From assembly GCF_003590945.1 (NCBI RefSeq), contig NZ_QYUK01000011.1:2260001-2324000 (forward strand): DNA of 64,000 nt. The letters are read 5' to 3'. Below the pieces are notes generated by a model, which ran no database searches, had not been told where the DNA came from, and worked only from the letters and a program-made list of their open reading frames with translations. This document shows positions 1 through 63,414 of this stretch, one piece after another (the stretch's first letter is position 1; every line of letters begins with the position of its first letter). Both the position numbers and the translations under genes were made by a program. Origin of the DNA: Oleomonas cavernae (GTDB lineage: Bacteria; Pseudomonadota; Alphaproteobacteria; Zavarziniales; Zavarziniaceae).

Positions 1-981
1 CGGCTCACTAATTCCGTTAACCCGCCCCACGATCGCGAGAGCAGTTCCCCGTTGGCCCAGATTATCATGGATCCTGGGAGCGAAACTCCGCCACCAGTCC
101 TGACGCCAGACTTGCAAAGTGCCTTGGACAGTTTGCTCCAGGAGTGGGTCGACTACGACGAACTACGCACTTTAGGGGTGGCGCCGACCCAGTCTTGCCT
201 GATCTTCGGAGAACCCGGCACCGGCAAGACCGTGACCGCCATGTACATCGCCACAAGACTTGGGCTGCCAGTAGTACTCGCCCGGCTCGACGGCATGATG
301 AGTTCATTCCTTGGCACCACAGCGCGCAATATCGGTGCCTTGTTTGAGTTTGCGAACCGATACCGTTGCGTGTTGCTACTCGACGAATTCGACGCGCTTG
401 CAAAGCTGCGGGACGACCCGCAGGAAGTCGGAGAGATTAAGCGGGTAGTGAACACATTGCTGCAATGTCTCGATACGCGCGCGGACCTTGGCTTGACGAT
501 TGCCATCACCAACCACCCAAACCTCCTCGACCCAGCGATTTGGCGACGCTTCGAGGTGAAAATCGAAATGCCTTTGCCGCCGCCTGACGAGCGCGAGCGG
601 CTCATCGCCGGCTTCCTGCGGCCTCTTTCGGTGCAGGATAGCGGCGTGGACTTGCTCTCGTGGGCCTCTGAGGGCGCTACGGGCGCCGAGGTCAGGTCAA
701 TGGTAAACGCCATCAAGCGTTACAGCGTCCTACAGAAGACGGGCGAACAACGCGGCAAACTGGATCCTCAGGACATCCTGGCTGCATTGCAGCGCTACTA
801 TATTACCAGTGCCAAATTGGAAGATCGCTCGCGGCTTGGAACGCTGCGTGATGATCCTAAGAGCCTAGCCCGCGCGCTGCTGACCAGCGAGGACGGAAAG
901 TTCACCCAGTCAACGGTTGCGCATTTGCTCGGTCGTGATCAGGGCACAATCAGCCGGTGGATGCGGGAGGAGCCGGCTTAG
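1..981 (+). CDS. ietA: AAA-family ATPase, IetA-like (ietAS defence/plasmid stability pair), 5' end uncertain
   Basis: AAA+ ATPase that in the ietAS family works with the subtilisin-like protease encoded 14 bp downstream. Counting from the TTG at 52: Walker A GEPGTGKT at residues 53-60, Walker B VLLLDEFD at about 107-114, sensor-1 ITN at 152-154 and an arginine-finger-like WRRFE at 164-168. The last 25 residues (FTQSTVAHLL then GRDQGTISRW) look like a helix-turn-helix, so it may also bind DNA. The frame is open from base 1 with no stop, so the true start may lie outside the window; TTG 52 (309 aa) and ATG 67 are the internal options. GC and codon use are lower than in the core genes from 3660 on, consistent with transfer. 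Family assignment is from memory of IetA (pTiC58) and the phage-defence literature, not from a search. Confidence 0.72.
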   Translation, partial: RLTNSVNPPHDRESSSPLAQIIMDPGSETPPPVLTPDLQSALDSLLQEWVDYDELRTLGVAPTQSCLIFGEPGTGKTVTAMYIATRLGLPVVLARLDGMMSSFLGTTARNIGALFEFANRYRCVLLLDEFDALAKLRDDPQEVGEIKRVVNTLLQCLDTRADLGLTIAITNHPNLLDPAIWRRFEVKIEMPLPPPDERERLIAGFLRPLSVQDSGVDLLSWASEGATGAEVRSMVNAIKRYSVLQKTGEQRGKLDPQDILAALQRYYITSAKLEDRSRLGTLRDDPKSLARALLTSEDGKFTQSTVAHLLGRDQGTISRWMREEPA

Positions 982-995
982 TTGCCGGGATGTAG

Positions 996-3500
996 ATGGC
1001 GGAAAACAATCCGGTTCAGATCGTCCTCAATGACAACGACTATATTACCGCCCCGGAGCCAGGCCGGTCCGGGCCGCCGTTCGACTTTTTTGCTGGGCGT
1101 GATGCGGCGTTTGCTAAGCATAAGGCCAAGTTGGCCGGCCGGTTGTCAGAGGTTTCTAAAACGCTAGAGAAAGTCGGCGTTGATGGCCAAGGCTACATCA
1201 AGGTGCGTCTTCGCGAGGAGGCGCTCGCCAAGTCACACCGTCCCATTCGATCGATGTTCGTCCCTTCGGAGTTTCCATGCGTGGGGGCTGCGGGACTTGG
1301 CGAGTTGTTCTACTTGGCTAGTGCGAAGAATATCGGCGGCCTGATCAACGTGGTTGCCGAAGCCGAGTTGACCACCAACTGGGTGGAAGGCCGCGATGGA
1401 AAGGTGCGCGCTCAGCCGTCAAAGGTCAGGTCGGATGTCGGTGCGATCGAGGACGTGAGCCTTCCCGACCCCATAGCCAAGCGCGATTTCGACGCGAAGA
1501 CGGCTGTAAGTTGGCTCTCGGATCCGAGGACTGGCGGCTTCTACATTGTCGAGTTGTTCGAGAACCCGGTGTTGGCCCAACGTCGCACTGGACGCAGCCG
1601 TGGTCGCCTCGCCGAAAGTGTTCAGAGCCTGTTCAGTCAACTTGGCGCTGGCGTTGTTGCTTGGCCCATGCCTGCGGCGGGTGGTGAACTACCCTTAGCC
1701 TTGCGTCTGACGCTTAGCCAGGATGTGGCAAGGCTCGTCAGCGCACCGAGCAACGAGGGGCTTCCCGTCGAGATCGACCCCAATCCTGCTCGTCACGAGC
1801 AGGCCTTGCAGCACTTGGCTAGCCATCCGGCAGTCCGGCGAATTTCATTACCGCTCCGGCTTGAACTGTCCACCGCTGACAGCGCCCCTCTTTCTCGAAC
1901 CCCTGCGGTTCCAGTGCCTAACCCCGAGGTCAATTACCCAAAAATAGGCGTGATCGACACTGGTCTTGGCCCTGCACTCCACGACTGGGTGATCGGCAGA
2001 CACGACTATCTGGACGAAACCGAAGTCGACGGCGAACATGGCTCCTTTGTAGGGGGGCTGCTGGTCGGCGCCAAGGCCTTGAACCCTGCAATTCCAGGAC
2101 TCGAGGACGACGGTTGTGAATTGGTTGATCTTGCGCTCTTCCCGCAGGGCGACTTTATGAGCACTTATCCAGGTGGCTTCATCGATTTCCTTCACGAGAT
2201 GGATCAGGCGATCAAGGAGGCGTCGGAGAGCCATGGCGTTCGCGTCTTTAACCTGAGCATCAACGCTGTCAGCGCGGTGGAGCCTGACCACTACAGCTAT
2301 TATGCCGCGCGCATGGACGAGATCGCGGCCAAACATGATGTGGTCATTGTCAACTCGGCTGGCAATCTCGACGGAAGCGAGCGCCGCGCTCCTTGGCCGA
2401 AAAAGCCCATCGACGCGATTAAGTATTTCGCGGCCAGGGTCGAGCCGGACACTATCCACAAGCCGACAGAAAGCTATCGGGCTATTTCCGTTGGGGCTCT
2501 GAACCCACCTGGTTGCACGGTTCACAACGAAGGACTACCGACCACTTACACGCGCCGAGGGCCTGGCTTGCGGGTCGGTTGCAAGCCTGATGTGGCGCAC
2601 TACGGGGGCAACGACGGCGCAGGTCCAAGTGGCCACCACGGCTTGGTTTCGCTGGCTCCGGACGGGGCGCTAATGTCCGACTGTGGCACCAGCTTCGCAG
2701 CTCCCCTGGTCGCCAAGTCCTTGGCTTCGCTGGAAAGCCGAATTGAAGGGCGGATGCCTAGCCATGCCTTGCGCGCTCTGTTGATCCACAACTGTTTCAC
2801 ACCGGAGGCGCTCCAGGACAAGCGGCTCGCACATCTGGCGCGTCAGTTCGTTGGTTTCGGGGTGCCCTGTCCGACATCGCAGATGCTCCTCACGGATGAC
2901 AGCTCGATCACTTTGGTATTCACGAGCCGCCTTCCGGACGACGAGAAGCGCCCGAAAGTTCTGCGTTTTCCCTTTCAGTGGCCGCAGGCCCTTGTCGATC
3001 CAAGTACCGGCGCCTGCCTTGGGGAAGCGACCGCGACGCTTGTGTATGAACCGCCGGTTGATCGGGCGTTTGGCGCCGAGTTCGTGCGGATCAATCTGGA
3101 TGCCAAGCTACAACAGCGCCAATTGGAGAACTGCAAGGACGGAAGCCCCAGTTTCCATGATCGGTTTGAGCAGTGCTTTCTGCCCAAAACCTCAAAGCAG
3201 CCAGTGCCAGAAAAGGAACTGATCAAGCAAGGTCTGAAGTGGTGGCCTACCAAGCGCTATAGGACGCGCTTTGCCGCCGTTGGTGCTGGCGAAAGCTCAG
3301 AGTGGCGCATTGAGGTGTCTGCGCTCAGACGGGCCGAAGCGCCGTTCCCGATCGAAGGTGTACCTTTCAGCCTCGTAGTAACAATCCGTGACCCTAGCGG
3401 CGTGCAACCCATTTTCCAGCAACTGCGACGTTCGCTGCAAACCAGCCGCGTTCAGCTAGAGGACTTGAGGACGCATCAGCGTGTCCGCACCGGCGGATAG
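996..3500 (+). CDS. ietS: subtilisin-like (S8) serine protease, IetS-like
   Basis: 834-residue S8-family peptidase, partner of the preceding AAA ATPase. The catalytic residues are all visible: Asp321 in IGVIDTG, His348 in GEHGSFVGG, oxyanion Asn457 in NSAGN and Ser566 in CGTSFAAP, so it should be active. A 310-residue N-terminal region without signal peptide precedes the protease domain, indicating a cytoplasmic enzyme, and about 230 residues follow the catalytic Ser. In the Agrobacterium ietAS pair the protease is the toxic partner and the ATPase restrains it; the same pair has been reported as anti-phage. The ATG at 996 lies 14 bp after the ATPase stop, so the two are one operon. No other defence gene is visible downstream before the core gene at 3663. 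Specificity and trigger cannot be read from sequence. Confidence 0.75.
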   Translation: MAENNPVQIVLNDNDYITAPEPGRSGPPFDFFAGRDAAFAKHKAKLAGRLSEVSKTLEKVGVDGQGYIKVRLREEALAKSHRPIRSMFVPSEFPCVGAAGLGELFYLASAKNIGGLINVVAEAELTTNWVEGRDGKVRAQPSKVRSDVGAIEDVSLPDPIAKRDFDAKTAVSWLSDPRTGGFYIVELFENPVLAQRRTGRSRGRLAESVQSLFSQLGAGVVAWPMPAAGGELPLALRLTLSQDVARLVSAPSNEGLPVEIDPNPARHEQALQHLASHPAVRRISLPLRLELSTADSAPLSRTPAVPVPNPEVNYPKIGVIDTGLGPALHDWVIGRHDYLDETEVDGEHGSFVGGLLVGAKALNPAIPGLEDDGCELVDLALFPQGDFMSTYPGGFIDFLHEMDQAIKEASESHGVRVFNLSINAVSAVEPDHYSYYAARMDEIAAKHDVVIVNSAGNLDGSERRAPWPKKPIDAIKYFAARVEPDTIHKPTESYRAISVGALNPPGCTVHNEGLPTTYTRRGPGLRVGCKPDVAHYGGNDGAGPSGHHGLVSLAPDGALMSDCGTSFAAPLVAKSLASLESRIEGRMPSHALRALLIHNCFTPEALQDKRLAHLARQFVGFGVPCPTSQMLLTDDSSITLVFTSRLPDDEKRPKVLRFPFQWPQALVDPSTGACLGEATATLVYEPPVDRAFGAEFVRINLDAKLQQRQLENCKDGSPSFHDRFEQCFLPKTSKQPVPEKELIKQGLKWWPTKRYRTRFAAVGAGESSEWRIEVSALRRAEAPFPIEGVPFSLVVTIRDPSGVQPIFQQLRRSLQTSRVQLEDLRTHQRVRTGG

Positions 3501-3662
3501 TAGGGGCAGCATATGGACGGCTCACTGTCTGAACTGACATCAATGTCCGTTCTTGGGCGCTGAGCAGCTGTGAGACCAAGCTCTATGGAAGGACCACTCT
3601 CGGCCAAGGGCCGTCGTCTTAGTGCAAGATCGATCGACCAAGCCATGGTTGCCCCCATCCCC

Positions 3663-4685: not shown

Positions 4686-4710
4686 GACTCCCGGCCTGTG
4701 AGCCCCCGCC

Positions 4711-4788: not shown

Positions 4789-4897
4789 GGGGTATCGAGG
4801 GGCGGATTCGCGGCGGCCCCATGGCTGGACGGGCTGGAAACAGCCTGATACAACCACGAACCTTTGCTTGCCCCTTACATTTTGGCCCGTTCCCGCG

Positions 4898-24455: not shown

Positions 24456-24884
24456 TCAGGCGGCGTGGCGCCGCGCTGATGCGGCTTGGCGGGGCTTGGG
24501 CTTGACCAGCAACGCCAGTTGCGCCGGATTGGCCTTCAACAGCTTGAGCAGATGCCACATGGAAAGGGCCGGCGCGACTTCGCCCTTTTCATATTTCTGA
24601 AAGGCGCGGGCGCCGCCGCCAAGCAGTTCACCAGCTTTGCGCTGGCTCAGTTTCAGCGCCTTTCGCACAGCGGTAACCTCAGCGGCGACCTTGGCCTTCA
24701 ATTCCCGCAACACCGCGTCGGTCACCGCCAGATCCACCATCGAATGCAAACCGTCGCCGTCGTCGCTCGGGTACCACCCGGGCAGCATCACGGTCTTCTC
24801 CTCGCCAGCCCAGCGGACCACGACCGGCCTTTCGCCGCGGGTCAAGACCGCGCCGGTTTCCGGATGAATTCTCGTGGCCTGCAT
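24456..24884 (-). CDS. mqsA: MqsA-family antitoxin/regulator
   Basis: 142-residue type II antitoxin. It begins with the MqsA-like HPETGAVLTRGERPVVVRW then VMLPGWYPSDDGDG, and has a C-terminal HTH: VRKALKLSQRKAGELLGGG, ARAFQKYEKGEVAPALSM. Unlike E. coli MqsA no zinc-binding CxxC pair is seen, as in many alphaproteobacterial members. It starts 1 bp after the toxin stop. Autoregulation of the operon through the HTH is typical of the family. Confidence 0.85.
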   Translation of the reverse strand: MQATRIHPETGAVLTRGERPVVVRWAGEEKTVMLPGWYPSDDGDGLHSMVDLAVTDAVLRELKAKVAAEVTAVRKALKLSQRKAGELLGGGARAFQKYEKGEVAPALSMWHLLKLLKANPAQLALLVKPKPRQAASARRHAA

Positions 24885-24885
24885 G

Positions 24886-25206
24886 TCACTTCTCCTTGAA
24901 CGAGGTCAGGACGAATTCCGTCGTCGTTGCAGGGTCGTTTTCATCGACGAATTTGATGTAGATCGTCAATTCGATACTGTTTTGGAAATGATAGACATCC
25001 ATCCATCTTTTCGGGTCGTTGAACGTATTCACCGACTTGAAGAAATGCTTGGCCGTCAGCTTGCCCAGAACGCCGCTGATGGCAGCCGTATCGAAACTGA
25101 TATCAAGGCCACCTTTCACGGCGGCCGTTGTCATCTCGACCTTCCCCGCCACAACAGCCGCTTTGAAGGCCGCGAGGCTGTGTGTCGATTTGCGCTTCTC
25201 AGCCAT
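24886..25206 (-). CDS. mqsR: MqsR-family toxin
   Basis: 106-residue toxin of the MqsR family, which cuts mRNA mainly at GCU in E. coli. Seen: MAEKRKSTHSLAAFKAAV, LTAKHFFKSVNTFNDPKRWMD, VYHF and the C-terminal strand TTEFVLTSFKEK, all typical. ATG 25206 chosen. Toxin-first order matches mqsRA. Lower GC than neighbours, part of the 24.4-27.6 kb island. Confidence 0.83.
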   Translation of the reverse strand: MAEKRKSTHSLAAFKAAVVAGKVEMTTAAVKGGLDISFDTAAISGVLGKLTAKHFFKSVNTFNDPKRWMDVYHFQNSIELTIYIKFVDENDPATTTEFVLTSFKEK

Positions 25207-25542
25207 TGGCCGCACTCATATTGGCATGTTTATGGTGCCAGTCAATGCACCTGCCTTCCCGCCGCCGATGCCCTATCGCCCGTGCGGTCGGCCGCTGGCA
25301 ACGACCGCAGTCGCCAGCTCTGCTTGTCTGCTCTACCGCTGCCATCAGGGTTCGTTCCACCTCGCCATTGTCGGGGCGGTCCCGCCTCATTCATCCTGCC
25401 GCCGCTCCCCACGACAATCAGGATGATTTCGGCAGCTCAATCCGCGGCGGTTCCAGGAGAGGGCTCTCAAAAAAAGTATTGATTTATATAATTCCCCATT
25501 TTTTATACTCTGCTTTGCATAAACAATCTTGGGGGATAATTT
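25207..25542. promoter_or_regulatory. 336-bp spacer with AT-rich promoter region
   Basis: Divergent spacer between mqsR and an orphan lipoprotein gene. The stretch 25470-25530 is the most AT-rich of the window. A candidate -10, TATACT, lies at 25504-25509 with TTGATT at 25479-25484, though the 19-bp spacing is long. GGGGG at 25531-25535 is a good ribosome binding site for ATG 25543. I see no clear palindrome for MqsA. Confidence 0.4.
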
Positions 25543-48645: not shown

Positions 48646-50742
48646 TCAGAACAGGAAGTCACTCGCGTCGAGCACGCCCAGGTTCACGCCTTGCAGGATG
48701 AACTTGTCGGTCCCGAAAGCGATCACCACATCGGCCCCGACCTGCGACATGTGCGACTGGATGTCGGCGAAGGAATTCGCGACGCTGCCCGTGAAGTCCA
48801 GGTAGTCGTAGTTGTTGGTGAAGTCCTTCACCGTATCCACGCCCGTGCCCGTCGCGAAGACGAAGGTATCGCGGCCGGCATCGCCCTGCAGCGTGTCGTT
48901 GCCGGCGCCGCCGTCGATCCGGTCGTGGCCCTCGTCGCCGAACAGGGCGTCGAGATCGAGGCCGCCGAACAATTGGTCGTTCATCAGACCGCCGTGGAGC
49001 GTGTCGTTGCCGGCACCGCCTGTCAGCGTATCGGTCCCGTTGCCGCCCGACAGGCTGTCGTTCTGGGTGCCGCCGTCCAGCGTATCGTTGCCCTCGCCGC
49101 CTTCCAGGGCATCGGCCCCGGCATCGCCGTTGATGGTGTCGTTGCCGTCCTCGCCGCGCAGCCAGTCGAGGCCCTGGCCGCCCGAAATCGTGTCGGCCCC
49201 CAGGCCGCCCGTCACATAGTTGGCCGCGTTGTTGCCGGTCAGCGTGTCGTCGAAGGACGAACCGCTGATGTTTTCGATTTGCGTGAGAGTGCCGCCCTGC
49301 ACCCCGCCGATGCTGAACTTGCCGAGCGTCAGGTTGACCACCGCCGGCCCATCGGCGTTGTAGATGGTGAGCGTGTCGATCCCCGTGCCGCCGTTGTAGC
49401 TGTCGCCGCTGCTCAAGGGGCCGTCGACGACGAACGTGTCGCTGCCGCCGCCGCCGACCACCTTGTCCTTGCCGCCTTCGAGCAGCCAGAAGACATCGTT
49501 GCCGCCGCCGCCGATCAGCGTGTCGTTGCCGGCGCTGTCATACATGGTGTAGGCGGCATCGGTTTCGGCGCTGGCGTCGATGTAGGCGTAATTGCCGGAT
49601 CCCAGGGCGCTGGAAACGCTGACCAGCAGGGATTCGCCCGTGTTCAGGTTGCCGTCGGCTAAGAAGAGCTTGTAGGTGAAGCCCGACCGCAGCACCACCC
49701 GTTCGAGCCCGGCCAGGCCGTCGTCGGCGAAATAGACGCCGGCACTATAGTCGCCGGTGAGATCCAGCGTGTCATAGCCGCTGCCGCCGTAGACCAGGTC
49801 CGAGGCGTCGAGCCCGCCGTTGAAATAGAAGGAGTCGTCCCCGCCCAGGCCGGAGAAATAGTCGCTGCCCGAATAGCCGGCGCGGAACAGGTCGCCCGAC
49901 TGGCCGCCGGTGAAGACCTCGTTGCCGGCGCCGTCATAGAAGTCGAACCAGCCGTCCGTCTCCTGGGAGCCGTTGAAGACCACCGAGAGGCCGGGAGCCA
50001 GCGAACGGACGTCGATATTCAGCATCTGCCCAGCGGCCAGCAGGCTGTCGGCCGCCTGGAAGGAGGCGCCGAAGTCGCCGGTAACGTTCAGTGTTTCGAC
50101 ATTCTTGAAATTGGCGCCGGTGAGCTGGACGGTCGCCGGCTGCACCCCGCGGAAGTAGACGACGTCCGACCCGGCGCCGCCGTCGAACACGTCGCCCGCG
50201 CCGAAATTGTTCTCGGCCACCAGAACGTCGTTACCGCCCTGGCCGTCGACAAAGTCCGTGCCGCCATAGGACATCGACATGGCGTCGGCGCCCTGGCCGC
50301 CGATCAGGATGTCGTCGCCGTAGGAGTCGGAGACATTGAAGCCGCCGTCGGTCTCGGCCGAACCGTTGAAATGCAGGTAATGGCCCGTGCCGCCGAAGCC
50401 CACGCCATAGGCGCTGACCGTCATCGCCTGGCCGGCGGCGACCGTGTTGTTGCTGGTCGTGATGTCGTAGGAAAAGCCCGTGGTCATTTCGAGCTTTTCG
50501 ACAAAGCGAACCGTGGTCGAATTGAACGTCAGACCGGCGCCGTAATCGCCCTTCAGGGTCAGCGTGTCGACGCCGTCGCCGCCGTTGACCTTGTCGGCAG
50601 CCATCAAGGTGGCGCCGAAATCGATTTTGTCGTCGCCCCCGTTGCCGTTGACCGTGTCGACGCCGCCTTGGGTCATGTCGAAGGTATCGGGGTCGATGGT
50701 GCCTTGCTTGGTGTCGTTATTGTTGGTGCCTACGAAGTCCAT
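48646..50742 (-). CDS. RTX-type calcium-binding protein 1
   Basis: 698-residue Gly/Asp-rich acidic protein. C-terminal third has classic GGxGxDxLxG nonapeptides (e.g. GGLGADTISGGQGLDWL, GGTQNDSLSGGNGTDTL, GDEGHDRIDGGAGNDTL). The N-terminal two thirds have three related ~105-residue units each with an [AQ]ETD segment (SAETDGGFNVSD, SQETDGWFDFYD, SAETDAAYTMYD). No signal peptide; C-terminal TDKFILQGVNLGVLDASDFLF suits type I secretion. Start ATG 50742 (MDFVGTNNND). No HlyBD genes in the window. Confidence 0.85.
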   Translation of the reverse strand: MDFVGTNNNDTKQGTIDPDTFDMTQGGVDTVNGNGGDDKIDFGATLMAADKVNGGDGVDTLTLKGDYGAGLTFNSTTVRFVEKLEMTTGFSYDITTSNNTVAAGQAMTVSAYGVGFGGTGHYLHFNGSAETDGGFNVSDSYGDDILIGGQGADAMSMSYGGTDFVDGQGGNDVLVAENNFGAGDVFDGGAGSDVVYFRGVQPATVQLTGANFKNVETLNVTGDFGASFQAADSLLAAGQMLNIDVRSLAPGLSVVFNGSQETDGWFDFYDGAGNEVFTGGQSGDLFRAGYSGSDYFSGLGGDDSFYFNGGLDASDLVYGGSGYDTLDLTGDYSAGVYFADDGLAGLERVVLRSGFTYKLFLADGNLNTGESLLVSVSSALGSGNYAYIDASAETDAAYTMYDSAGNDTLIGGGGNDVFWLLEGGKDKVVGGGGSDTFVVDGPLSSGDSYNGGTGIDTLTIYNADGPAVVNLTLGKFSIGGVQGGTLTQIENISGSSFDDTLTGNNAANYVTGGLGADTISGGQGLDWLRGEDGNDTINGDAGADALEGGEGNDTLDGGTQNDSLSGGNGTDTLTGGAGNDTLHGGLMNDQLFGGLDLDALFGDEGHDRIDGGAGNDTLQGDAGRDTFVFATGTGVDTVKDFTNNYDYLDFTGSVANSFADIQSHMSQVGADVVIAFGTDKFILQGVNLGVLDASDFLF

Positions 50743-50841
50743 GATGTCGTCTCGATCCCCTGGATTGGGCCGCCCGTCTATAGCCGAGCGGCCCGGATGC
50801 AAGCAAAGGCAGTCCTGCCAAAATGTTCATCCGTCACGGTG

Positions 50842-58297: not shown

Positions 58298-58924
58298 TTG
58301 AAACTCTACGATTCGACATTGTCGCCCTATGGCGCCCGGGTTCGCCTGTATGCGGCCAGGAAGGGCATCGAGCTCGATATCGAAAACCCGCCGGCCGACT
58401 TCCAGGCGATCAACCCCACCGCCAAGGTGCCCTGCCTGGTCGACGGCCGGCTGGTGCTGCCTGAATCCGAGGTGATCGTCGAATATCTGGAAGACCGCTT
58501 CCCCGAGCCGCCGCTGCGCCCCGCAAGCGCGGAAGGCCGGGCGATGGCGCGGCTGCTCGCCCGCATCGGCGATCTCTATGTCTATCCGGCGCTGGCCGCG
58601 CTGTTCACCCAGATGGGCTCGCCCCGGCGCGATCCGGCGGTGATTTCCCGGAAGGTCGAGGAGCTGGCTTACGGCCTCGACCAGTTGGAAGCCTTCATCG
58701 GCACCGCCGGCACGGCGGTCGACGGCGGCTTTTCGACCGCCGACTGCGCCCTGGTGCCGATCCTGCTGTTCACCGTGCAGTTCCTGGAACAGGTGGCGCC
58801 CGACCTGCTGAGGACGCACCCCCGCGTCGTCGCCTATTGGGCAGCCATCCAGCAGGAAACCGCCGTGGCCCCGCTGGTCGCCGAACTGCGCCTGGCCCTG
58901 GCCGCCTTCCTCACGCAACGATGA
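58298..58924 (+). CDS. glutathione S-transferase family protein
   Basis: 208 residues. Thioredoxin-like domain MKLYDSTLSPYGARVRLYAA, AINPTAKVPCLV (cis-Pro) and LPESEVIVEYLED; C-terminal helical domain with GFSTADCALVPIL. The active Ser/Cys position has SPYGAR, as in zeta/omega-like members. Substrate unknown. Overlaps the convergent RTX gene end by 14 bp. Confidence 0.88.
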   Translation: MKLYDSTLSPYGARVRLYAARKGIELDIENPPADFQAINPTAKVPCLVDGRLVLPESEVIVEYLEDRFPEPPLRPASAEGRAMARLLARIGDLYVYPALAALFTQMGSPRRDPAVISRKVEELAYGLDQLEAFIGTAGTAVDGGFSTADCALVPILLFTVQFLEQVAPDLLRTHPRVVAYWAAIQQETAVAPLVAELRLALAAFLTQR

Positions 58925-61118
58925 GGAAATCGGTGACCGAGATCACCGGCGCACCCTGCAACACCCAAAGCAGGACCGCCGACGAGGCGCCGCTGCCGTC
59001 CATATCATAGCGCAGGTAGCCATCGTCGGTGTCGTAGAGAAAGACGCCGTCGGTGTGGCCGGAGGGATCGGGGGTGCTGCCCATGACCAGATCGACCGGG
59101 CCGCCGGCGACCAGGCCCCAGCCGAATTGGGAGGCATCGACTTGCAGCAGGTCGATACCGGACTGGAAATCCATGACGCGGTCGTGCTCGCCGGCCGCCG
59201 GCAGCTTGTCGACGATGGCGAAGATATCGGCGCCGGCGGCGCCGGTCAGCTGGTCAGCCCCCGTCCGCCCCAGAAGCACGTCGTCGCCCTCGCCGCCGTC
59301 CAGCTTGTCCCGGCCGCCACCGCCGTCCAGCCGATCGGCGCCGCCCAGGCCGGTCAGCACATTGTCGGCACTGTCGCCGACCAGCCGGTCCGACCTGAGG
59401 GCGCTGCCGATGAGATTCTCGATGCCGGCGAAGCTGTCGCCCAGCGCATCGCGGTCGTTGGTTCCCGAGCCGTCGAGATAGACGACCGCGCCGCTGCCCC
59501 CTCCGGCATAGCTGACCAGGTCGATGCCCGCACCGCCATCGAACCTGTTGGCTGCCGCGTCGCCGCTGAGCACATCGCCGAACGAGGAACCAGTCAGGTT
59601 CTCGATGCCGATCAGCGTGTCGACGCCCGCGCCGCCCGTATCTTGTGCCGTTGCGATCCCGAGACCAACCGTAATGCCACTTGTTGCATCGGCATAGCTG
59701 GCGGTGTCGCCGCCGCCACTGGCGTTGCCGCCGCCGTCAAGGTGATCATTGCCCGCGCCGCCGATCAGGATGTCCGAATCGGAATAACCCAAAAGCCAAT
59801 CATTGCCCGCGCCGCCCTCGAGCGTATCGACATTCAAATTGCCCAAAAGCCGATTGTCGAGATCATTGCCCCGCAGGTTGAAATTGCCCGATCCCCGGTA
59901 ATCGCCCATTTCAACGCCGGCCGCCAAGGTATAAGCACTGACGCCGCCGGCACGGAAAATGATGACCTCGTCAAAGCCCTCCCCCGGATTTTCAACGACC
60001 GCGTCATAGACGAATCTGTTGATGAGCGGATCGATCGGATTGACATCCCTGAGGACGTAGGTGTCGTCACCGACACCACCAATCAAGACATCCTTGGCCA
60101 ATCCCCCTTCAATTGTATCGTTGCCAAGGCCGCCGGTCAGCAAATTGACGCCCTGTCCCCCGGTCAATCGATTGCCAAGGCCGTTGCCTGTCAGATCGAA
60201 AGCGCCGGTGCCTACATCCTTGCCATCCTCGATGTTGGCCGGGAGGACATAGCTGCTGACGGCCGATCCTTCGACCCGTGCAATCTGGACGACATCGCGA
60301 TGAGTGCTGCCGGCTGTCTCGATCACCGTGTCATAGACATAAGAGCCGCCCGGGCCGGTTGGATGAACATCCAGCAGGATGAAGGTATCGGCGCCGCCGC
60401 CCTCGCCCCACAGCGTGTCAGCCCCGGCGCCACCGTCCAGCACGTCGTCGCCGGAACCGCCGATCAGGACATCGTCACCCCCCAGACCCTCGACGTAACC
60501 ATTGCGCGACGGGCTGCTGCCGCTCTTGAGGATATCACCGAAGGCGGAACCAACGGCTTTCTCGATGCTGATCAGCAGGTCGATGCCGCCACCGCCGGTG
60601 TTCTGCCAATCGGTCAGCGCCAGGTCCACAAAGACGGCACTTGGCGCCCAGGCGTAGGTCACCAGGTCGTTGCGGCCAAATTCGTTGCCTGAGGTGTCGG
60701 TGCCCTGATCTCCGCCATAGATCGCGTCATTGCCTGGGCCACCATCCAGGATGTCGTCGCCATTGCGCCCGACGACGATGTCGTCGCCGTCGCCGCCGTT
60801 AAGATAGTCCCTGCCATCATTGACGTAGAAATCAGCGACGCCATTGGCACCTCGGCCGCCATTGACGATGTCGTTGCCGTCGCCGCCATAGACAACGTCG
60901 TCGCCCAGGCCGCCATAGAGCCTGTCATTGTTGGCGCCACCGTCCAAAAGGTCGTCGCCGCCGATGCCGTGAATAAAATCGTCGCCGCCGGCGCCGCTCA
61001 GGCTGTCATTGCCCGCCTCATCACCAAAGACATTGGTGTCGGGGCCGCCATACATGGTGTCGCCAACGCTCGTGCCTGAGCGGATGTCGTCCCCGTCGGT
61101 ACCAAAAATCTTCGCCAT
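58911..61118 (-). CDS. RTX-type calcium-binding protein 2
   Basis: 735-residue Gly/Asp-rich protein with many GGxGxDxLxG repeats (e.g. GGDGDDIVVGRNGDDIL, LGGDDVLIGGSGDDVLDGG) interleaved with 'IGIENLTGSSFGDVLSG'-type units. The last about 110 residues (HDRVMDFQSGIDLLQVDASQ, FLYDTDDGYLRYDMDGSG, VLLWVLQGAP, TDFLIVA) are nearly the same as in RTX protein 3: the likely type I secretion region. No signal peptide. ATG 61118 (MAKIFGTDGDD). Tandem to 61311-63323. Confidence 0.86.
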   Translation of the reverse strand: MAKIFGTDGDDIRSGTSVGDTMYGGPDTNVFGDEAGNDSLSGAGGDDFIHGIGGDDLLDGGANNDRLYGGLGDDVVYGGDGNDIVNGGRGANGVADFYVNDGRDYLNGGDGDDIVVGRNGDDILDGGPGNDAIYGGDQGTDTSGNEFGRNDLVTYAWAPSAVFVDLALTDWQNTGGGGIDLLISIEKAVGSAFGDILKSGSSPSRNGYVEGLGGDDVLIGGSGDDVLDGGAGADTLWGEGGGADTFILLDVHPTGPGGSYVYDTVIETAGSTHRDVVQIARVEGSAVSSYVLPANIEDGKDVGTGAFDLTGNGLGNRLTGGQGVNLLTGGLGNDTIEGGLAKDVLIGGVGDDTYVLRDVNPIDPLINRFVYDAVVENPGEGFDEVIIFRAGGVSAYTLAAGVEMGDYRGSGNFNLRGNDLDNRLLGNLNVDTLEGGAGNDWLLGYSDSDILIGGAGNDHLDGGGNASGGGDTASYADATSGITVGLGIATAQDTGGAGVDTLIGIENLTGSSFGDVLSGDAAANRFDGGAGIDLVSYAGGGSGAVVYLDGSGTNDRDALGDSFAGIENLIGSALRSDRLVGDSADNVLTGLGGADRLDGGGGRDKLDGGEGDDVLLGRTGADQLTGAAGADIFAIVDKLPAAGEHDRVMDFQSGIDLLQVDASQFGWGLVAGGPVDLVMGSTPDPSGHTDGVFLYDTDDGYLRYDMDGSGASSAVLLWVLQGAPVISVTDFLIVA

Positions 61119-61310: not shown

Positions 61311-63323
61311 TCAGGCAACGATCAGGAAATCGCTCGCCGTCAGGCTGGGCACGCCTTGCAGGACCCAAAGCAGGACCGCCGACGCCGCCCCGGCGCCGTC
61401 CATGTCGTAGCGCAGATAGCCGTCGTCGGTGTCGTAGAGGAAGGTGCCGCCGGCCAGCCCCACCGTGCCGGGGTCACTGCCCGTGCGCAGGGTCACGGTG
61501 CCGCCGGCCACGAGCCCGCCCTGGAACTGGGAGGCGTCGACCTGGAGCTGGTCGATGCCGTGCTCGAAATCCATCACCCGGTCGTGGCCGCCGGCAGCAG
61601 AGGGTTTTTCGACGAAGGCGAAGATGTCGGCGCCGAGGCCGCCGGTGACCTGGTCGGCGCCGGCCCGGCCCAACAGGACGTCGTCGCCGTCGCCGCCGTC
61701 GAGATTGTCCTTGCCGTCGCCGCCGTCGAGCCGGTCGTTGCCGCCCAGGCCGGTGAAGCCGTTGTTCGCACCGTCGCCGATCAGCCGGTCGGCCTTGGCG
61801 GCGCTGCCGATGATATTCTCGACATTGACGAAGCTGTCGCCCAGGGCGTCGCGGTCGTTGGTGCCGGTGCCGTCGAGATAGACCACGGCGCCGGTGGCGC
61901 CGCCCGCGTAACTCACCAGATCGACACCGCCGCCGCCGTCGAACTTGTTGGCCAAGTTGTTGCCGATCAGCGTGTCGTCGAAGGCGGAACCGGTGAGGTT
62001 CTCCATGTTGACGAGCCTGTCGATGCCGGCGCCGCCCGTGTCCTGGTAAACCGCAAGGCCGAGATCGACCGTGACGGCACCGGCAGCCGAGGCATAGCTG
62101 GCCGTATCCCCGCCCTGGGCCAAGCCGGCGCCGCCGTTCAAGTCATCGTCGCCGAGACCACCGGTCAGAACGTCGGCCCCGTCGCCGCCGAACAGGCCGT
62201 CATTCCCGGCACCGCCATCGAGCAGATTGGCGACGGCGTTGCCGGTCAGCGAGTTGCCGAGATCGTTGCCGAACAGGTTGAACGCACCGCTGCCGGCAAC
62301 GCGACCGTTTTCGACGTTCGCTCCCAATGTGTAGCTGCCCACCTTGCCGACGCGCCTGACCTCGACCGTGTCGGTGCCGGCGCCGGCATTCTCGGTCACC
62401 GTGTCGAAGCTGAAGCTGAGATAGACATCGGCGAGGATGTAGGTGTCGTCACCGGTTCCACCCGCCAGGCTGTCCGCATCGCCGCCGCCGTCCAGCCGGT
62501 CGTTGCCGCCGGCGCCGTTGAGCGTGTCGCTGCCGGCACCTGCATCGATTCTGTTGCCGACGTCGTTGCCCGTGAGGTTGTCGTTGTAGGCCGAGCCGAT
62601 GAGATGCTCGATGCCGATCAGGGTATCGATCCCGGCAGTGCCGGTGTTCTGCGCCCCGGCGAGCGCCAGATTGACATTGACGCCATTGATGCCGCCGCCG
62701 GCGTCGGTGTAACTGACCGTGTCGTTGCCGCCCTGGCCGTCGAGCACATCATTGCCGAGCCCGCCGATCAACGTGTTGGAGCTGTTGTTGCCGGTCAGGA
62801 TATCGTCGAAGGACGACCCGGTGAGGTTGAGCACGCCGGTGATCGTGTCGGTCCCCGCCCCGACGGTATTCTGCGCCGTGGTGATCCTGAGATCGACCAC
62901 GACGCCGCTGGTCGCCGTGGCATAGCGCGCCGTGTCGTAGAACACCCTGCTGTTGGCGCTGGGCGGGCCGCCGACGATGAAATCGTTGCCGGCGCCGCCT
63001 TCGAGGATGTCGTCGCCGGCGCCGCCTTGCAGCCGGTCGGTTCCGGCGCCGCCGAACAGAAAATCGTCACCCCCGTCATGCGGGTATTCGTTGATGAAGT
63101 CGCCGTAGAGAAAGTCGTTGCCCTCGCCGCCGTCGGCATAGTCGTTGCCCTCGCCGGCGAAAAGCTTGTCGTTGCCTCCCAGGCCGTAGAGAAAATCGTC
63201 ACCCGCGCCTGCGCCGGACGCATTGGCCGCGAACGGCCCGGAGTCAGGGCCGGCGAAGATCTCGTCGTCTTCCGGGGTGCCGGTGATCGAATCCGAGCCG
63301 TCGGTACCGGTCAGCGTGGCCAT
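61311..63323 (-). CDS. RTX-type calcium-binding protein 3
   Basis: 670-residue paralogue of the downstream RTX protein. Start ATG 63323 (MATLTGTDGSDSITGTPEDD) with AGGAGG nearby upstream. Repeats of GGLGNDVLDGQGGNDTV type and 'IGIEHLIGSAYNDNLTGND' units; C-terminal module shared with RTX protein 2 (HDRVMDFEHGIDQLQVDASQ, YLRYDMDGAG, ASDFLIVA). Probably secreted by type I; role (adhesion, matrix, enzyme) unknown. Confidence 0.86.
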   Translation of the reverse strand: MATLTGTDGSDSITGTPEDDEIFAGPDSGPFAANASGAGAGDDFLYGLGGNDKLFAGEGNDYADGGEGNDFLYGDFINEYPHDGGDDFLFGGAGTDRLQGGAGDDILEGGAGNDFIVGGPPSANSRVFYDTARYATATSGVVVDLRITTAQNTVGAGTDTITGVLNLTGSSFDDILTGNNSSNTLIGGLGNDVLDGQGGNDTVSYTDAGGGINGVNVNLALAGAQNTGTAGIDTLIGIEHLIGSAYNDNLTGNDVGNRIDAGAGSDTLNGAGGNDRLDGGGDADSLAGGTGDDTYILADVYLSFSFDTVTENAGAGTDTVEVRRVGKVGSYTLGANVENGRVAGSGAFNLFGNDLGNSLTGNAVANLLDGGAGNDGLFGGDGADVLTGGLGDDDLNGGAGLAQGGDTASYASAAGAVTVDLGLAVYQDTGGAGIDRLVNMENLTGSAFDDTLIGNNLANKFDGGGGVDLVSYAGGATGAVVYLDGTGTNDRDALGDSFVNVENIIGSAAKADRLIGDGANNGFTGLGGNDRLDGGDGKDNLDGGDGDDVLLGRAGADQVTGGLGADIFAFVEKPSAAGGHDRVMDFEHGIDQLQVDASQFQGGLVAGGTVTLRTGSDPGTVGLAGGTFLYDTDDGYLRYDMDGAGAASAVLLWVLQGVPSLTASDFLIVA

Positions 63324-63383
63324 TCGGCCTCCTTCGGACCGGCCCTGGGCAAATCCCAGGCCGGATCCAGAGGACGTACAGTA

Positions 63384-63414
63384 GAACAAATTGAGCCCGG
63401 CGTCCCGGGCTCAA
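63384..63414 (-). terminator. intrinsic terminator for the phosphotransferase-like gene
   Basis: Perfect 10-bp stem TTGAGCCCGG / CCGGGCTCAA (63391-63400 and 63405-63414) with a 4-bp loop, 11 bp after the stop at 63425. On the minus strand it is followed by TTTGTTC (63384-63390), a modest U tract. It separates this gene from RTX protein 3. Confidence 0.75.

Follow-up and report, generated by a model that had tools for sequence, protein, structure and literature searches.

IetAS is a known two-gene system tied to phage defence and plasmid maintenance. Its founding toxin-antitoxin pair is ietA/ietS of the Agrobacterium plasmid pTiC58, an operon of an AAA+ ATPase gene and an S8 (subtilisin-like) protease gene. 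The sgiAT operon of SGI1 has the same composition, and toxin-antitoxin behaviour was shown for it: in E. coli, sgiT is toxic and sgiA neutralises it (PMC5006074). A related type, IteA/IteS from Acidovorax and Dongshaea, is named anti-phage by NCBI. The mechanism of IetAS was called unknown in 2023 (PMC9958689) and in 2025 (PMC11878078).

We analysed a stretch of 64,000 nucleotides from Oleomonas cavernae (C11:2260001-2324000), here called the window. At its left end an AAA ATPase gene lies directly upstream of a subtilisin-like protease gene on the same strand, as the first-pass annotation had proposed and as the open reading frames (ORFs) and the Pfam S8 match bear out (Table 1). The span of 1-3500 given there to the pair is right for the protease gene, which is complete. 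It is too short for ietA, which is cut by the window edge and starts 216 bp upstream of window base 1 (L007:9785). This start codon was chosen from the Met of the homologues, ten residues into the longest ORF. The profile search that had been suggested as a check gave full-length matches to the PADLOC models for IetA (PDLC02195, 490 bits, E 1.8e-147, ORF residues 10-405) and IetS (PDLC02199, 919 bits, E 6e-277, residues 3-832). For both proteins these models scored far above all others. A protease falling into another S8 subfamily and an ATPase falling outside IetA had been named as the outcome that would refute the pairing; since the full-length matches stand far above the rest, the search gave the opposite result. 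Judged by its profiles, the pair is IetAS.

Table 1. Features of the ietAS locus of Oleomonas cavernae (window positions, unless L007 is indicated)
Feature	Position	Strand	Description
Phased direct-repeat array	L007:9694-9780, upstream of window		5 GCAT cores, spacing 20/21/21/21 bp
ietA, 3' part	1..981	+	last 326 codons of the gene for a 398-aa AAA+ ATPase
IetA C-terminal helix-turn-helix	862..978	+	residues about 360-398, includes FTQSTVAHLLGRDQGTISRWMREEPA
ietS	996..3500	+	834 aa, S8 (subtilisin-like) protease; Pfam S8 match
IetS propeptide-like region	1504..1865	+	residues about 170-290; superposes on subtilisin propeptides
IetS S8 catalytic domain	1935..2891	+	residues about 314-632; Asp321, His348, Asn457, Ser566
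IetS C-terminal beta domain	2892..3497	+	residues about 633-834; AlphaFold model

Terasakiella pusilla (L028) carries the nearest relative in both protein trees, yet its IetA is only 54% and its IetS only 48% identical to the proteins studied here. This locus and rhizobial plasmid copies share with ours the gene order, the catalytic residues and the full-length PADLOC match, and likewise have a C-terminal helix-turn-helix (HTH) in IetA and a phased GCA array before ietA. Unlike them, the O. cavernae copy is a rare chromosomal one and solitary. The IteA/IteS type has the same architecture and is related over the full length; its IetS is about 750 aa long and 26-28% identical, and its array core, where present, is TTCA and not GCA. 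Our proteins stayed below the cut-offs of the NCBIfam IteA/IteS equivalogs NF042959 (276 vs 510 bits) and NF042956 (328 vs 900 bits). The match to the Agrobacterium plasmid ietA/ietS, which the first-pass annotation had put forward, holds only at the level of the superfamily. The pTiC58 pair itself is distant: IetA is 38% identical over 181 aa, and IetS gives a BLASTP score of 36 bits with 26% identity over 252 aa. The hhalign probability for IetS is 97.8%; kinship of the two proteases is clear only by profile comparison and very remote. IetA of the pTiC58 type is short, about 325-330 aa, and has no HTH at its C-terminus. In pTiC58, IetA has 328 aa, ends before the HTH domain and has no array upstream of its gene; the IetA studied here has 398 aa and carries the HTH.

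The catalytic residues Asp321, His348 and Ser566 of IetS are exactly where they had been placed, and Asn457 is the oxyanion-hole Asn. The four residues are constant over 86 homologues, with one exception. In the IetS of a Bradyrhizobium barranii plasmid (L018) the equivalent of His348 is Leu, and Asp, Asn and Ser are retained; judged from this substitution, that protein is possibly inactive or repurposed. No hydrophobic stretch was found at the N-terminus of IetS (over the first 60 aa, no 19-residue segment has a Kyte-Doolittle mean above -0.05), and the protease therefore looks cytosolic. A search of solved structures by the IetS sequence gave no match. The AlphaFold model of IetS (pTM 0.90) has the KP-43/SubHal subtilases as its top fold matches (Z 27). 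The KP-43 alignment reaches IetS residue 797, and the C-terminal beta domain is as in KP-43. The pro-subtilisin rows in VIA-align begin at model residues 167-181; these rows give only the first and last residue, so that the propeptide-like span in Table 1 is an estimate. In the model, residues about 170-290 could be an internal inhibitor domain.

IetA consists of an N-terminal helical region, an AAA+ core, a lid and the C-terminal HTH. The Walker A and B motifs and the arginine finger that had been noticed are present: Walker A is GEPGTGKT at 142-149, Walker B is D200/E201, sensor-1 is N243 and the Arg pair is R254/R255. Apart from one T/S exchange, these do not vary over 88 IetA homologues. 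In a structure model of the Terasakiella IetA (54% identical; model pLDDT 85) the AAA+ core is PAN/p97/FtsH-like, and four HTH-type helices are seen at the C-terminus (345-391, pLDDT about 90-94). Pfam HTH_38 was matched by 14 of 45 IetA homologues.

Upstream of ietA lies an array of short direct repeats, with GCAT cores at -91, -71, -50, -29 and -8 relative to the ATG. It is the only chain of five or more GCA cores at 20-21-bp spacing on both strands of 104 kb of the organism's own sequence (p = 0.0003 against dinucleotide shuffles). Arrays of this kind are common before related ietA genes. In 47 related upstream regions, pairs of GCA[ACT]C occur 133 times at 21 bp (0.4 expected) and 36 times at 20 bp (0.3 expected), and chains of three or more GCA cores (3-8 cores) are present in 42 of these loci vs 18 of 831 control windows. 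Often, 21-24 bp separate the final GCA core from the start codon. A phasing test that assumes no motif reached p<=0.01 in 43 of 91 loci with a long IetA, so that about half of them miss this threshold individually; it did so in 2 of 112 regions upstream of neighbour genes and in none of the loci with a short IetA, which number only seven from few lineages. Inverted-repeat operators before ietA were also considered and rejected: they are in slight excess only (mean best score 6.1 vs 5.3), and the direct repeats account better for what lies there.

We first noticed the array on reading the upstream DNA of the initial loci by eye, so that a second collection served as the only clean test. In 63 further loci from viral contigs the summed signal is strongest at lag 21 (z 10), with peaks at 20 and 42 too; 17 of the 63 are individually significant vs 3 of 220 control windows. 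A chain of three or more GCA cores was found in 4 of 21 closer relatives within this set. The GCA core is not general there, and thus the phasing replicates and the motif does not. In other clades the 20-21-bp phasing comes with a different core: a sister alphaproteobacterial clade uses CGAT, Bacteroidota have GGAAT/GGAAA, the IteS-like clade has TTCA, and an Enterococcus plasmid copy has GGAAC. The GCA array is absent in pTiC58, Acidovorax, Dongshaea and other distant types, part of which show other cores with the same phasing.

It could be that the operon is an ordinary IetAS whose repeats are sites of a host-encoded regulator or nucleoid protein, the HTH serving, for example, to dock IetS or to sense phage DNA. 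Some loci with HTH-like tails (L140 and L147), in which no array was seen, would agree with this. We consider it unlikely, since Pseudomonadota, Bacteroidota and Bacillota share the phasing despite the differing cores, and since the core changes together with the HTH. In all clades compared, the AAA+ part is 0.61-0.65 identical to that of IetA here. The identity of the HTH is 0.22-0.51 in the GCA-core clades and 0.11-0.16 in the CGAT-core clade. The core motif thus shifts with the HTH while the AAA+ part stays unchanged, which fits an operator read by IetA's own HTH, that is, a cis-encoded regulator. With two helical turns between them, the sites all point to the same side of the DNA, which would suit an oligomer. 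From this co-variation, the C-terminal HTH of IetA probably reads the upstream array. A literature search on ietA/iteA with helix-turn-helix or iteron, with subscription papers outside its scope, returned nothing on IetAS; apparently, the HTH tail with the phased array is unreported in the searchable literature.

The setting of the operon in O. cavernae points to acquisition. The pair had been described as chromosomal-looking and lower in GC, and both descriptions agree with our data: it sits on a 4.37-Mb contig and is therefore chromosomal, and the GC of ietA (0.599) and ietS (0.594) is below that of the window (0.666), of the immediate neighbours (0.663 and 0.658), of ileS (0.675) and of the adjoining genes (about 0.66-0.69). 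ileS comes straight after ribF in three sister genomes, whereas an insert of about 9.7 kb separates the two in O. cavernae, with genes in the order ExoD-like, fatty acid desaturase, DUF454-like, pyruvate kinase, mobile mystery protein A, ietA, ietS and DUF72 (ExoD, DUF454 and ribF are names that we assigned by reading the sequences). The accessory block begins some 5 kb before window base 1 and ends near position 4690. The core border had been drawn at 3660. The DUF72 gene found there has no match at E<=1e-30 in five same-genus genomes and is not core; because ribF and ileS are adjacent in the sister genomes, the right core border is ileS at 4889. The block ends gave no convincing attachment-site repeat or tRNA, and no integrase, tRNA or end repeat marks the insert as a single mobile element. 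An Rfam search gave no match.

Within the block, the orphan gene of mobile mystery protein A (L007:9082-9585, 918 to 415 bp before the window start; TIGR02612, 156 bits) is preceded by palindromic repeats. No Fic partner B, with which protein A is usually paired, reaches the curated cut-off in this genome. A functional link between this gene and ietAS was rejected: no relative carries a mystery A gene nearby, and we therefore take the adjacency as chance. The pyruvate kinase gene (L007:7477-8895) is 83% identical to pyk of one sister genome (G003, L129) and only about 54% identical to the copies of other genus members, which suggests gene replacement. Farther along the window, on the - strand, lie an MqsR toxin/MqsA antitoxin pair (24459-25215; Pfam PF15723, PF15731) and the genes of three large RTX calcium-binding-repeat proteins (48649-50802, 58914-61118 and 61314-63389).

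IetS was not found in five same-genus genomes and one same-family genome. Among 385 genomes drawn from the class it occurs in four, O. cavernae included, and in one of the four it is a fragment close to the end of a contig. The absence of ietAS from the five same-genus genomes might be expected of a decaying, functionless remnant, and it fits a recent gain too. Against a remnant stand two complete reading frames, the full set of catalytic residues and a retained promoter array, so that we regard it as very improbable.

We compared about 160 relatives; one scan of a genome collection gave 80 loci. In nearly all loci ietA precedes ietS, commonly with an overlap of about 8 or 11 bp and otherwise with a short gap. 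In Methylobacterium goesingense (L084) the two genes are divergent and not tandem. The IetA and IetS trees are congruent (Mantel r 0.983, 0 of 999 permutations); thus, the two genes are inherited together. In Escherichia phage vB_EcoS-683R6 (L150) the pair lies between a dnaC-like gene and antiterminator Q, and the viral-contig loci L151-L230 hold IetAS pairs inside phage or prophage genomes, IetS being downstream of IetA in 69 of these 80.

IetAS also occurs on plasmids and on SGI1, and relatives behave as toxin-antitoxin pairs (PMC5006074). The operon may thus be a toxin-antitoxin module that stabilises a former mobile element, as in pTiC58 and SGI1, and has no anti-phage role in O. cavernae. 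The copy here has no further defence gene beside it in its non-syntenic block: no defence island was found around it, and 48 neighbours gave only cyclase-like and mad2-like matches. The relatives, in contrast, cluster with defence systems. Annotated plasmid copies adjoin TIR, caspase, Shedu, Abi, SIR2 and DUF2235 genes, and 119 ORFs neighbouring the relatives matched 168 PADLOC models (among them Gabija, Septu, PARIS and Thoeris; the count is of models and not of proteins) vs 0 for 116 control ORFs, which come nearly all from sister genomes and are mostly core genes. In addition, a related type bears the anti-phage name, and stability functions bring little benefit to the host on a chromosome. 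We therefore hold a purely stabilising role to be rather unlikely, and the two roles are compatible.

Taken together, we favour as fairly probable an acquired and intact IetAS operon in which IetA restrains IetS and binds its own promoter array through the HTH, setting the dose of the protease. IetS would be a cytosolic subtilisin-like protease restrained by a hexameric, p97/PAN-like AAA+ IetA, which may keep it inactive through the propeptide-like region. In the HTH lineage, IetA would bind the promoter of its own operon at the short direct repeats, which recur every two helical turns, and would thereby repress the operon. One protein would then both set the amount of the toxic protease and restrain it. 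IetS would probably be switched on by IetA upon phage infection or loss of the operon. The toxin-antitoxin data behind this model come from the pTiC58 and SGI1 types, of which the pTiC58 IetA has no HTH.

DnaA and bacterial enhancer-binding proteins, which are AAA+ proteins with a C-terminal HTH, and the iteron-binding Rep proteins of plasmids recognise repeats whose phasing puts them on the same side of the double helix. The array of IetAS resembles DnaA boxes and iterons in this respect, being phased repeats that would be read by an AAA+ protein with a C-terminal HTH. Unlike these proteins, IetA has an AAA+ part of the p97/PAN/FtsH type and a protease partner, and no role in replication or with sigma-54 is indicated for it. 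A more speculative reading, which we think improbable as it stands, is that IetA is an array-bound AAA+ sensor with a DnaA-like layout: a hexamer with up to six HTHs on about 3-7 repeats at its own promoter, whose release or remodelling both derepresses the operon and frees IetS. This could be caused by phage factors, by DNA damage or when the replicon that bears the array is lost. If so, diverging arrays would make IetAS copies mutually interfering or compatible, which would be a molecular basis of the plasmid-incompatibility side of such systems.

IetAS is a known kind of system, and the array together with the HTH makes this locus more than a case of routine annotation. The family splits into a type with array and HTH and a short type with neither. 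The HTH tail and the phased promoter array offer a concrete handle on how a potentially lethal cytosolic protease may be dosed and triggered.
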